From contig CAIMSU010000350.1 of the NCBI GenBank assembly GCA_903844155.1, positions 1 through 39,732 of the forward strand: a DNA stretch of 39,732 nucleotides, in the 5' to 3' direction. This DNA is from an uncultured Pseudomonadota bacterium (GTDB lineage: Bacteria; Myxococcota_A; UBA796; SXON01). Shown in pieces: positions 29,078-39,732 of the stretch. The translations under genes and the position numbers were made by a program. The notes beneath the pieces were generated by a model. The model saw only the letters and a program-made list of their open reading frames with translations. It did not search any database and was not told the origin of the DNA. Every line of letters starts with the position of its first letter. Within the stretch, counting starts at the first letter, position 1.

Positions 29078-29647
29078 ATGTCCGCCGAGACCGAGATCCA
29101 AGCCGCCATCGACACCGTGGCCACGCCGAACCCGCACGCGCTCATGTTCCGCTTGCAGGAGATGTTGATTCCAACAGGCACGTTCGAGTACCTCTCCCGC
29201 GCCCACGCCAGCGACGCGCCCTTGCCCCGCCGGCTTTTCGACCTCGTCGGCGTCACGCAGGTGCTCGTGGCGCCGCGGTTCGTCACGGTCAACAAGGAGG
29301 CGGACCTGCGCTGGCCAGAGCTTGTGCCCCAGATCAAGGCGGCCATCCGTGACTTTCTCGACTCCGGGGACATGGCGGTGCCCGACGAGGACCTGGCCGT
29401 GGCGCACTACACGGACCCCGTCGAACGACGGATCGTCCGGTTGCTCGACGAGGTCATCCGGCCCGCGGTCGCGGAGGACGGCGGCGACATCGTCTACCGC
29501 GGCCTGCACGACGGGATCGTGCACGTGAAGCTGATCGGCTCGTGCTCCTCGTGCCCGTCCAGCACAGCCACGCTCGCGATGGGCGTGGAGCGGATGATGC
29601 TGGAGGAGGTTCCGGAGGTGAGGGGAGTGTTGCAGGTGAGCGACTAG
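29078..29647 (+). CDS. Nfu-type Fe-S cluster scaffold/carrier
   Basis: 189 residues. The N-terminal Nfu_N-like domain (about 10-95) has TPNPHALMF, then [27 protein letters not shown]. The C-terminal NifU-like domain (115-188) has GGDIVY and the cluster-binding CxxC at C156/C159 (GSCSSCP). It assembles or delivers [4Fe-4S] clusters to client enzymes. It stands alone on the plus strand; no isc or suf genes are nearby. The start is the ATG at 29078; no Shine-Dalgarno is clear. Confidence 0.93.
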
Positions 29648-29716
29648 GGTGCGGATGAGTCGGTGCGTGTGTGCGGCCGAAGCGAAACGCCGAACGCTCT
29701 CGACGTGGATGCAATT

Positions 29717-29839
29717 GGGCGGCCGGCCGGGACCTTTGCGCGGGCGGCCGCCGGTACTCCGGCGCTCCCGCCCGCGCAAAGTCGCGCCGATTTGGTACTC
29801 CAAATCGGCGTTAGGGTCCGGCCCGGGGGTAGGCCGCCC
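29717..29839 (+). other. Three-way-junction structured element, two hairpins with GGTACTCC tips
   Basis: Outer helix: GGGCGGCC (29717-29724) pairs GGCCGCCC (29832-29839). Next, GGCCGGGACC (29725-29734) pairs GGTCCGGCC (29815-29823) with one bulge. Hairpin A: TTTGCGCGGGCGG (29735-29747) pairs 29768-29780 perfectly, and its loop contains GCCGG-TACT-CCGGC. Hairpin B: CGCCGATTTGG (29785-29795) pairs 29800-29810 perfectly with loop TACT. Both inner hairpins thus end in GGTACTCC. A further 9-bp hairpin lies at 29853-29875. The rest of 29648-29932 holds no gene. It could be an untranslated-leader RNA, a small RNA or a mobile repeat; no known class is recognised. The structure was derived by eye. Confidence 0.65.
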
Positions 29840-29932
29840 GCGGCGGCCGGAGGGGGGCGGCGAGCAGCCGCCCCCTTCAGAACGCAGGGTGACGCTTCGA
29901 CCTGAACAGGTGCGGATGCCGAGGGCAGATCG

Positions 29933-30985
29933 ATGCGCATAATGATGGTCGCCCGCCGTTGGCCGCCGGACGTGCGCAGCGGCACCGAGACGGTCTTCGA
30001 GAGCCTCTGGCGACAGGCGCGCGCGGCGGGACACGACGTCCGCCTCGTGGTGGGATATCGTACCTCGTCGGACGGTTTTCCTGCAGACGCCGTCGCCGTC
30101 GACCTGCGCGGCAAGGGTGCGGCCGCGTACGTTGCGATGGAGGGAGCGGCCGTGCGCGAGGCGCGAAACTTCCGGCCCGACGTCGTCCTCTCCAACTCGA
30201 TCGAGATCCGGGTCCCGGGCGTTCGCAACGTTGTGATCGTCCACGACCTCAACTTCGGGGGCGAGGGAGCGGGCCCGAAGCGGTGGGCGCGGGAGCTGCT
30301 GTACCGCGCTCAGGCACGCGCTGGCGCGGTCATCGTCACGGTCAGCGCTGCGACCCAGACGGCGCTCTCGGCGCTGGGGATTGCGTCGACCGTCATCCAC
30401 AACGGGGTCGACCTGGCGCGCTTCTCGCCCGTCCCTCGTCCGGCCCGACCCGGCGTCCACTTCGTCTACCCCTCGCGGATCCTTCCTGGCAAAGGCCAGC
30501 ATGTCGCGCTCGACGCCTTCGGCCGGCTGCGCCCCGATCAGCGCCCGGGTTGGACCCTCACCCTCGTCGGCGCCTCCGCCGACCAGATCTACGCGGACCA
30601 ACTGCGCGTGCAGGCATTCAAGCTACCCGTGACCATCGCCCTCGACGTGCCGGACATCGTCCCGTACTACCAGGACGCCGACGTGGTGCTGTTCCCGACG
30701 CGCATGGCGGAGGGCTTCGGCTTCACCGCGGTCGAGGGCATGGCCTGCGGCAAGCCGGTCATCTGGAGCGAGCAACCGGCGATCCGCGAGGCCACCGGCG
30801 GTATCGGCGTTCCGGTCCCGATGGACGATGCGGACGCGCTCAAGCGCGGGATGCTCACCCTCGGCAACGACCCGGGCCTGCGCGAGCGGCTCGGCGCGGA
30901 AGGACAGGCGTTTGTCCAGCGCTTCTCGTGGCCGCTCGTGTGGACGAGGTACGAGGCCGTCCTGGCTAGCCCTCGGGGCGCCTGA
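29933..30985 (+). CDS. GT4-family glycosyltransferase
   Basis: 350 residues with two Rossmann halves (GT-B). N-terminal acceptor half: MMVARRWPPDVRSGTETV with the Gly-rich turn, and VVIVHDLN. C-terminal donor half: FVYPSRILPGKGQ, then the EX7E motif in EGFGFTAVE and GKPVIW. It transfers a sugar from a nucleotide-sugar donor, probably to an envelope polysaccharide or lipid; the sugar is unknown. GAGGG precedes the ATG by 7 nt. Its last 20 bp overlap the end of the convergent TPR gene. Confidence 0.93.
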   Translation: MRIMMVARRWPPDVRSGTETVFESLWRQARAAGHDVRLVVGYRTSSDGFPADAVAVDLRGKGAAAYVAMEGAAVREARNFRPDVVLSNSIEIRVPGVRNVVIVHDLNFGGEGAGPKRWARELLYRAQARAGAVIVTVSAATQTALSALGIASTVIHNGVDLARFSPVPRPARPGVHFVYPSRILPGKGQHVALDAFGRLRPDQRPGWTLTLVGASADQIYADQLRVQAFKLPVTIALDVPDIVPYYQDADVVLFPTRMAEGFGFTAVEGMACGKPVIWSEQPAIREATGGIGVPVPMDDADALKRGMLTLGNDPGLRERLGAEGQAFVQRFSWPLVWTRYEAVLASPRGA

Positions 30986-38121: not shown

Positions 38122-39599
38122 CACGGCGCCCCCAGCCCGTTCAGCGCATCCCCCACCCGCCACCCGCTCCACACCACCGCCCCAATGCTCCCATCAAACC
38201 CCGTCAACCCGCCCATCCCCGGCGCGCCCATGCCCGCGGCCTCGCCGACCGCGTACAGGCCGGCGATGGGGCTGCCGGACGCGTCGAGCACGTGCCCGTC
38301 CATCGCGACGTCGATGCCGCCGTAGCTCTTCTCGCCGATGCGGGCGGGCAGGAAACCGCAGAGGGCACGCCCGGCAAAGGGCACGAGGCTCTGCGGGTCG
38401 CGGTTGACGGGGTCCAATGCGGTCCCCGCGCGCTCGGCCTCGATCGTGTCGATGGTGGCTTGCAGGCCGACGCCGTCGACGCCGAGGGCGGTGGCCAGCC
38501 CGGCGACGGTGTCGTCGCAGGCGAAGGACCCGGAGCCGGCTGCTGCGTCGAGGGTCGCGAGGTCGGGGGCGCTCACGGCGGCGACGAGCTCGTCGCGCGG
38601 GATGATGGCCCAGGACCCCGCGTGACCATCGAGCGGGCGAGAGAGCGAGAGGCTCCAGATGCCGGTCTCGTCGACGTAGCGTCCACCGGCCGGATCGACC
38701 CAGATCCACGGGATCACGAAGGGCTCGGCGTCCCAGTTGATGCCCACGTGCAGCGGGAGGTTGGCGCTGTCGAGGATGCCGATCGTGCCGAAGTACCAGC
38801 CGATTGCGTCGAGGTGGCTGGACGACCACCCGCCGGCGTTCGCCCACGTGAGCGCGTCGCCCGTCGCGCCGGGCACGTCGCTCGCGGCCCAGAGTCCGGT
38901 CCTCGTCTGCACCTCCGGGTCGAACAACGCCGGGTTTCCGGAGAACCCTCCCGTCGCGACGACCACCGTCCCGGCCGGCACACGCTCGCCGTTCACCTCG
39001 ACCCCCACGACGCGCCCGTCCTCGACGTCCACGGACTGCACGGGCGTGCTCGCAAGCACCGTCACGCCGCTGGGGAGCGCGGCCATCAGGGCGCCGCCAA
39101 TCCCGATCGGCGTGGTGCGGCTGACGGAGATCAGGCGTTGTTTGTGAAGGATCGGGTCCTGCCGCGAGAACAGCTCGAACGTCACCCCAAGCGCCGCCAG
39201 CCGATCCCGCGTCGCCCGGCTGTCCGTCAGGTAAGCGACCGTCTCGTCCGTCGCTGCGGCGCCTGTCAGGCTCGGCCAGTCGGCGACGGCGGCGTCGACC
39301 GTGTCGGCGATCCCGGCCGCCTCCTGCTCTTCGGAGTCCACGACCATCACGACGTTGCCGCCGGCGGGCGCGCGGCCTCCGAGGAACGGCGTGGATTCAT
39401 ACAGCGTGCCCTGGCCGGCCGCGCCTGCGCACGCGAGCCCGGACGGACCACCGCCGATGATCAGGAGCGGGCCGACGTCTCCCGTGGAGGAATCGCCCGA
39501 CGACTCGTGGCTGGAGTCGGTCGTGGAGTCGTGCGCGCCCGAGTGCGCGGCGTCCTTGTGTCGGCAGGCGAGGAGCAGCAGGAGCGGCACGCGGCGCAT
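38121..39599 (-). CDS. FAD-dependent oxidoreductase lipoprotein (fumarate reductase/ketosteroid dehydrogenase type)
   Basis: 492 residues. Lipobox LLLAC (C12), then a Ser/Thr/Asp/His spacer to about 42. Dinucleotide-binding fold LLIIGGGPSGLACA (45-58) and a later VVVATGGFSGNP strand. The C-terminal FAD motif is GLYAVGEAAGMGAPGMGGLTG. Layout matches the fumarate reductase/3-ketosteroid dehydrogenase flavoprotein family, with GEKSYGGIDVAMDGHV near the cap. Such enzymes are usually cytoplasmic or cofactor-loaded and Tat-exported; a lipobox here implies envelope location and no twin Arg was seen. Substrate unknown. It is coupled by overlap to the MopE/Gly-rich gene. The group II intron end lies just upstream. 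Confidence 0.88.
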   Translation of the reverse strand: MRRVPLLLLLACRHKDAAHSGAHDSTTDSSHESSGDSSTGDVGPLLIIGGGPSGLACAGAAGQGTLYESTPFLGGRAPAGGNVVMVVDSEEQEAAGIADTVDAAVADWPSLTGAAATDETVAYLTDSRATRDRLAALGVTFELFSRQDPILHKQRLISVSRTTPIGIGGALMAALPSGVTVLASTPVQSVDVEDGRVVGVEVNGERVPAGTVVVATGGFSGNPALFDPEVQTRTGLWAASDVPGATGDALTWANAGGWSSSHLDAIGWYFGTIGILDSANLPLHVGINWDAEPFVIPWIWVDPAGGRYVDETGIWSLSLSRPLDGHAGSWAIIPRDELVAAVSAPDLATLDAAAGSGSFACDDTVAGLATALGVDGVGLQATIDTIEAERAGTALDPVNRDPQSLVPFAGRALCGFLPARIGEKSYGGIDVAMDGHVLDASGSPIAGLYAVGEAAGMGAPGMGGLTGFDGSIGAVVWSGWRVGDALNGLGAP

Positions 39600-39732
39600 A
39601 GGTAGACTCTTAGCGCAATACCGGCGTTTTGCCGGCTTGTTTCAAAAAGCCCCCATTCAAACCGTGCTTGCGGTTTTCCCGCACACGGCTTTCCAACGGT
39701 CTTCGTGGGGCAGCTTCGGACAGGTAGACGAC
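39600..39732 (-). mobile_element. 3' end of a group II intron (domain V), cut by the window edge
   Basis: On the minus strand, 39691-39659 folds as a canonical domain V: AAGCCGTG at the base with the catalytic AGC triad, lower stem GCCGTG/CACGGT, a 2-nt bulge (AG) on the 3' side, upper stem TGCGG/CCGCA and a GAAA-type loop. A following hairpin GGCTT...AAGCC (39651-39634) may be domain VI. The intron 5' part and any reverse transcriptase/maturase would lie beyond 39732. The 3' splice site is not determined but lies before the flavoprotein ATG at 39599. Confidence 0.75.

Follow-up and report, generated by a model that had tools for sequence, protein, structure and literature searches.

A covarying repeat family placed before unrelated genes in an uncultured Pseudomonadota bacterium, read as a probable promoter-targeting MITE-like element

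A gene-free gap of 285 bp (29648–29932) in contig CAIMSU010000350.1 (GCA_903844155.1) of an uncultured Pseudomonadota bacterium contains a block of DNA that folds almost completely, and the locus raises the question of whether this block encodes a structured RNA or belongs to mobile DNA. We analysed a window of 39,732 nt, meaning the whole stretch around the block, together with the host genome and its relatives.

Results

The window copy and its fold

The gap lies directly upstream of a glycosyltransferase gene, as a first-pass annotation of the sequence had it, and all the helices described there are present at their positions. A three-way junction is predicted for 29718–29840, with two hairpins capped by TACT, and its minimum free energy of −129.8 kcal/mol compares with a mean of −103.8 (s.d. 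4.9) for shuffles that keep dinucleotides (z = −5.3, with none of 200 shuffles as stable). On the minus strand the fold is just as strong (z = −5.45). The features of the locus are as follows.

29078–29647 (+): upstream neighbour, Nfu/NifU-type Fe–S scaffold gene, outside the element
29718–29907 (+): structured part of the repeat element (type A); similarity with the other copies stops at about 29907
29721–29823 (+): junction helix P1, 29721–29729 with 29814–29823, enclosing the three-way junction; 97.5% of cells paired
29731–29783 (+): hairpin arm P2, 29731–29747 with 29768–29783; inner stem 29749–29754/29759–29764; TACT loop 29755–29758
29784–29811 (+): hairpin arm P3, 29784–29795 with 29800–29811; TACT loop 29796–29799; five pairs changed on both sides
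29825–29832 (+): conserved linker GGGGGTAG, at the foot of hairpin HP3; kept in the sister-species family too
29832–29848 (+): hairpin HP3, 29832–29838 with 29842–29848; four pairs changed on both sides in 8–10 of 20 copies
29849–29949 (+): 3' module (HP4, TCAGAA, GGTRACGC, CTGAAC and onwards); 3' model match of 58.2 bits, E = 3.3e-16
29850–29878 (+): hairpin HP4, 29850–29861 with 29867–29878; both-side changes at four pairs
29933–30985 (+): downstream neighbour, family 4 glycosyltransferase gene, outside the element

Comparison with other copies redraws the outline of the block. The element is longer than the 123 nt originally marked, similarity reaching about 29907. The outer 8-bp helix and the inner helix are both present in the window copy, but the outer one (GGGCGGCC/GGCCGCCC) is specific to it and not a family feature: across the family its 3' arm forms part of the separate hairpin at 29832–29848, and the conserved junction helix is 29721–29729/29814–29823. 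GAAAC is missing at the left of the window copy, right-hand similarity stops at CTGAAC (29907), and no recognisable counterpart of the terminal GTTTCNTGATA seen in other copies precedes the glycosyltransferase start at 29933; the window copy is an old one, decayed at both ends.

A dispersed family with more than one core

A DNA search of the host assembly (8.13 Mb, 375 contigs) with a 166-bp block returned 74 rows, of which many were incomplete or echoes on the minus strand. With a covariance model of the core (111 nt) there were 43 matches, and a model of the 3' part, running from HP4 to the terminal GTTTCNTGATA, found about 60 copies, roughly half of which carry a different core. The window block is one copy of a short repeat with about 60–70 copies in the genome, a figure that is a lower bound because many copies sit at the contig ends of a fragmented assembly. 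The element is a repeat and not a single-locus riboswitch-like RNA, and like MITEs in general it is short, non-coding and dispersed in many copies with unrelated flanks.

The twin hairpin tips that had drawn attention to the locus are both GGTACTCC in the window copy (29753–29760 and 29794–29801), but the second differs in 10 of 31 aligned copies, nine of which have CGCCCRAGCG and one CGCTTCGGCG. A second core type is represented by 13 copies, whose alignment is too poor for its fold to serve as evidence. Variation extends to inserts: in one sub-family (L036, L037, L038 and L040, each cut by a contig end) a longer structured insert (GGCGGCCGCGGGTCTTCCCGCGGC...) takes the place of the second arm, and in L035, L135 and L150 an insert of another type, bounded by GGGGGCCAATCC/GGATTGGCCCCC and found in both orientations, sits inside HP4. 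One copy at a contig end (L018, G000:C82) is joined to Illumina adapter sequence CTCTTCCGATCT, an assembly artefact. Alignments of the 3' module show conserved GGTARCGC and ATCTGAACGCGATC between HP4 and the promoter-like end. We take GGTARCGC to resemble the ops element; the ops-like GGTAGCGC was considered as a site for a NusG paralogue and set aside, as the promoter-like end is downstream of the motif.

Strong covariation without strand bias

It had been predicted from the window copy that homologues would exist and that the 13-bp and 11-bp stems would covary, and both proved true. Among 20 full-length copies, pairing survived changes on both sides at 18 of 59 pairs, as it did at 13 of 40 pairs in 31 cores. 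Across the same 31 cores there were 102 double-change cells against 34.8 in shuffles and the covariation score was 0.222 against 0.068, a signal destroyed when the partner was slid by one to three columns. Eight of the pairs changed on both sides lie in P2, over helices 2 and 3; P1 is almost invariant and therefore shows little covariation. Covariation of this strength indicates that the structure is real in some strand.

Core mismatches comprise 7 G·U and 6 A·C, leaving out one invariant G·U pair (31 cells), so nothing points to one RNA strand, and replacements are mostly whole Watson–Crick swaps with few intermediates. Processes acting at the level of the palindrome, such as recognition of single-stranded DNA or templated hairpin correction, explain the covariation as well as selection on an RNA does. 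The proposal of an RNA that has twin identical tips and binds a protein or ligand is not supported, one tip being unconserved and the mismatches showing no strand bias.

Element ends, junctions and tandem units

On the right, full-length copies end in GTTTCNTGA or a close variant, after which come TA and unrelated sequence; on the left they begin with G directly after TA, or in some cases TG, giving TAG or TGG in nearly all units (for example gtattaG in L021, tgctaG in L036, tgataG in L136, gaataG in L148, cggtaG in L151 and gggtaG in L155). With regard to target-site duplication, TA stands at most right ends and TA or TG at left ends. Most copies have internal GAAAC/GTTTC only and no matching terminal inverted repeats; L130 is the only copy with matching inverted ends, its left end TATCATGAAAC being the exact inverse of a right end, GTTTCNTGATA, and that left end too sits just before an ORF, on the opposite strand.

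Successive insertion at one TA predicts tandem units that share the junction TA. In tandem units the second starts exactly at the TA of the first, and units of different type (A-to-B) are joined at TA in L016, L021 and L130; L134 has two identical units in tandem.

Placement relative to gene starts and probable host promoters

Among 61 right ends, 49 precede a co-oriented ORF and three a convergent one, the remainder meeting a contig end, another unit or something unclear. The distance from the TGATAN end to the start codon is 7–9 nt in 22 of the 49 and 16–24 nt in a further 14, among which several have GGAG ahead of the start codon; the survey took the longest ORF in a 130-nt window, a choice that favours short distances, though not a peak at 7–9 nt. 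Pfam domains begin at residues 3–9 in four short-leader ORFs, indicating that their start codons are sound. The downstream genes are unrelated (kinase, SDR, 3HCDH and NTP transferase among them), and in two cases it is a tRNA-Arg gene that begins 10 nt beyond the end of the element. The first-pass annotation had held that many copies with no relation to genes would reduce the block to a simple mobile palindrome; the copies are many, but their relation to gene starts is precise.

Host upstream regions offer a match to this spacing. Upstream of 62 host genes with no recognised element, TA is enriched at −13/−12 from the ATG, with 11 at these two positions against about one per position elsewhere; a few of the 62 regions are diverged element ends, making the host-only figure somewhat lower. 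The element-end TA falls at the same position. Most simply read, leaderless genes would be common in the host, this TA would be the start of a −10 box, and the last bases of the element, TGA, would supply a putative extended −10 in front of it. Because the conserved promoter-like sequence is downstream of the fold, the fold would lie outside the mRNA leader of the gene; this, with copies that precede unrelated genes and tRNA genes, argues against a ligand- or protein-binding RNA.

Relatives, sister species and synteny

The host family itself appears confined to the host among the genomes searched. Across 58 relatives a DNA search gave scattered fragments only, with E no better than 5e-5, the core model had no matches among relatives in the order, and the 3' model gave weak matches (best 27.7 bits in G032, E = 1.3e-5) and no convincing copy. 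An exact-pattern scan of public genomes yielded nine scattered matches, all failing the core model and set against an estimated dozen or so expected by chance, which we treat as noise, as we do the two matches of a viral scan, which also fail the core model; plasmid and phage collections returned short chance-like pieces or nothing.

The same-genus genome G004 has a family of its own, with seven copies of GGGGGTAG-hairpin-GGAGGGGG. One of them (L190) folds into a three-way junction, a linker and two hairpins with stem sequences unrelated to those of the host family. The two species' families have in common an architecture of three-way junction, GGGGGTAG, HP3, GGA, HP4 and TCA on differing stems, and in two G004 copies (L163 and L188) TA was seen by eye at −12 to −10 before the ATG.

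In four same-genus genomes this glycosyltransferase does not come after the NifU orthologue (83–93% identical), and similarity at the nucleotide level stops at the end of NifU. As gene order differs after NifU, the window locus gives no empty-site comparison: the element marks a gene-order break there, suggestive of an event, and not an empty site.

Competing explanations

The most serious competitor, which we nevertheless consider unlikely, is a composite REP, in which GGGGGTAG and HP3 form a GTAG-tagged REP hairpin moved as single-stranded DNA by a RAYT (Y1/HUH) transposase and the three-way junction is a passenger. GTAG at the hairpin foot is the defining tag of GTAG REPs (PMC3733652), a tag beside a 20–40 bp palindrome is found here in two species as HP3 with GGGGGTAG, that linker is kept across both while the hairpin sequence changes, and the host genome has two Y1-type transposase genes. 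However, the 3' module is absent from both Y1 gene regions, one of the Y1 genes is flanked by unrelated AAAAGCGACGTCGTCG palindromes, and G004, which carries the family, has no Y1 match in a genome that is 86% complete, so that no association with a RAYT was found in the host Y1 gene regions or in G004. REPs are also 20–40 bp long, mostly downstream of genes and often in inverted pairs, whereas the units here are promoter-adjacent, and TA at both ends is not described for REPs in the same source (PMC3733652). At L203 (G000:C268, 1397–1456 and 2298–2349) a Y1-type (RAYT-like) gene has AAAAGCGACGTCGTCG palindromes and TATCAAAA/TTTTGATA ends on both sides and represents a separate mobile palindrome family. 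Ranked just behind the REP, and improbable in our view, is a cis-acting regulatory RNA (a leader, attenuator or riboswitch-like element) that controls the downstream genes and was spread by duplication. Such an RNA would suit the strong fold and covariation, the co-orientation with downstream genes and the conserved single-stranded linkers, but promoter-like TGATA follows the fold, with starts 7–9 nt later, which would leave the fold out of the mRNA; tRNA genes follow two of the copies, the downstream genes are unrelated, and the core mismatches lack strand bias (7 G·U to 6 A·C). The closest relatives are also without the element at the window locus, and the Rfam search recommended in the first-pass annotation gave no family for the element at gathering score over the whole window and 18 other loci with copies, a permissive scan of the window copy returning only chance-level matches.

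A small RNA gene standing on its own, or a bidirectional terminator, whose copies were reshuffled through ordinary recombination is very unlikely: although the elements occupy the space from a stop codon to the next promoter, HP4 forms a strong, G+C-rich hairpin and a search of the Y1 family found no transposase for the element, there is no T run after HP4 and no terminator-like site around the element. Different unit types meet exactly at one TA, and a TA fixed at both junctions is not what recombination by itself would produce. RNA-guided nuclease systems are known to have RNAs of about 200 nt that form several hairpins and occur in many stand-alone copies, and on that likeness the element could be the guide-type RNA of an RNA-guided transposon nuclease (IscB/HEARO or a TnpB omega RNA) in stand-alone copies. 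We give this the least credence of all, as the TnpB domain is absent from the genome in a search whose positive controls worked, and HEARO had no match at gathering score, nor did the window copy give one in the permissive scan; an IscB domain search of the genome, run without a positive control, had 0 matches.

A reverse transcriptase partner was also considered and rejected, the core model having no match in either of two reverse transcriptase loci. One of these (L055, G000:C62, 94–2092) has an HRDC-domain ORF, a bAvd-like ORF, a reverse transcriptase and then AAC-rich repeats, and reads as a diversity-generating retroelement; the other (L056, G000:C314, 412–1992) encodes a 526-aa reverse transcriptase of retron-like appearance. 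In the window itself, 39596–39693 (−) matches the Group II intron family RF00029 (43.9 bits) near the contig end, the rest probably lying outside.

Discussion

A probable MITE-like element at promoter TA sites

The best explanation, to which we assign a probability of about 0.7, is that the window block is a decayed copy of a short (about 200–300 bp) non-autonomous MITE-like element that would insert at a promoter TA and rebuild an extended −10. This reading brings together the repeat family, the covarying fold, the placement rule, the junction TA, the heterotypic tandems and the sister-species architecture. It also favours the DNA substrate for transposition or recombination that had been offered alongside an RNA, given that copies are dispersed by the dozen, that tandem units of unlike type meet at a fixed dinucleotide, and that the families are specific to their species. 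A full-length element starts with G right after TA (sometimes TG), continues through a variable core (here the three-way junction), GGGGGTAG, two G+C-rich hairpins and TCAGAAAA, and ends in GTTTCNTGA directly before TA. A putative transposase, supplied in trans, would recognise the folded ends and insert the element, with a 2-bp TA duplication, at a TA that most often belongs to a promoter −10 box. In front of that TA the right end would then place TGN, a presumed extended −10, so that the downstream gene keeps a putatively active promoter at the same distance, and the next insertion would reuse the same TA and build tandem arrays.

Against mobility stand the short length of a 2-bp TA duplication and the TG seen at the left junction of several copies. 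No pair of filled and empty sites was found, and mobility is what we infer from the junctions and copies described above; among Y1-family genes, the transposases searched, none shares the element ends. Orientation and spacing may reflect targeting of promoter TAs, and could also reflect survival there, through selection after random insertion. A bolder form of the MITE-like reading, which we offer tentatively and consider doubtful, is that the three-way junction, GGGGGTAG and two hairpins may mark a fold-defined mobile class that targets the leaderless −10 TA, rebuilds the extended −10 and uses folded-strand machinery (single-stranded DNA or RNA) outside the known IS partners.

Known mobile repeats provide partial parallels. 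Correia elements of Neisseria (CREE/NEMIS) are likewise short, non-coding mobile repeats of high copy number with TA ends and strong stem-loops, lie just upstream of genes and carry promoters, as the element here putatively does (PMC10969869, PMC2229807). They differ in having 24-bp terminal inverted repeats and simple end-to-end pairing; the ends here, GTTTCNTGA-TA and TA-G, form no long inverted repeat, inverted ends occur in one copy only, and the element has a three-way junction and two hairpins, is G+C-rich, has interchangeable cores and places its TA on the host −10 TA. RUP of Streptococcus pneumoniae (about 100 bp, about 100 copies) is also non-autonomous with TA insertion, and its mobilisation by an IS630-type transposase has been proposed (PMC2229807); RUP has inverted ends in common with IS630-Spn1, whereas our search, which covered the Y1 family, found no partner IS for the present element. 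GTAG-tagged REPs and REPINs resemble it in GTAG at the hairpin foot, species-specific stems and tandem clusters (PMC3733652), but the element is much longer, lies upstream of genes, has TA at both ends and is not beside the Y1 genes of the genome. YPAL/RU-2 is similarly not A+T-rich, and CIR similarly has separate hairpin arms joined by a linker (PMC2229807); YPAL differs in its 3–26 bp duplications and lack of TA ends, and neither YPAL/RU-2 nor CIR is reported in that source to rebuild a promoter (PMC2229807). The element is probably a variant of the MITE-like kind.

Implications

The element is a worked example of strong base-pair covariation without strand bias, and a warning for the discovery of structured RNAs by covariation alone. 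Because a sister species has the same fold with different sequences, whether the fold is the thing recognised is directly testable. If the promoter-targeting reading is true, this repeat would occupy promoters at low cost, inserting at the −10 TA and restoring it, which would explain the rule of orientation and spacing, the tandem arrays, and one promoter end common to dozens of unrelated genes and two tRNA genes.
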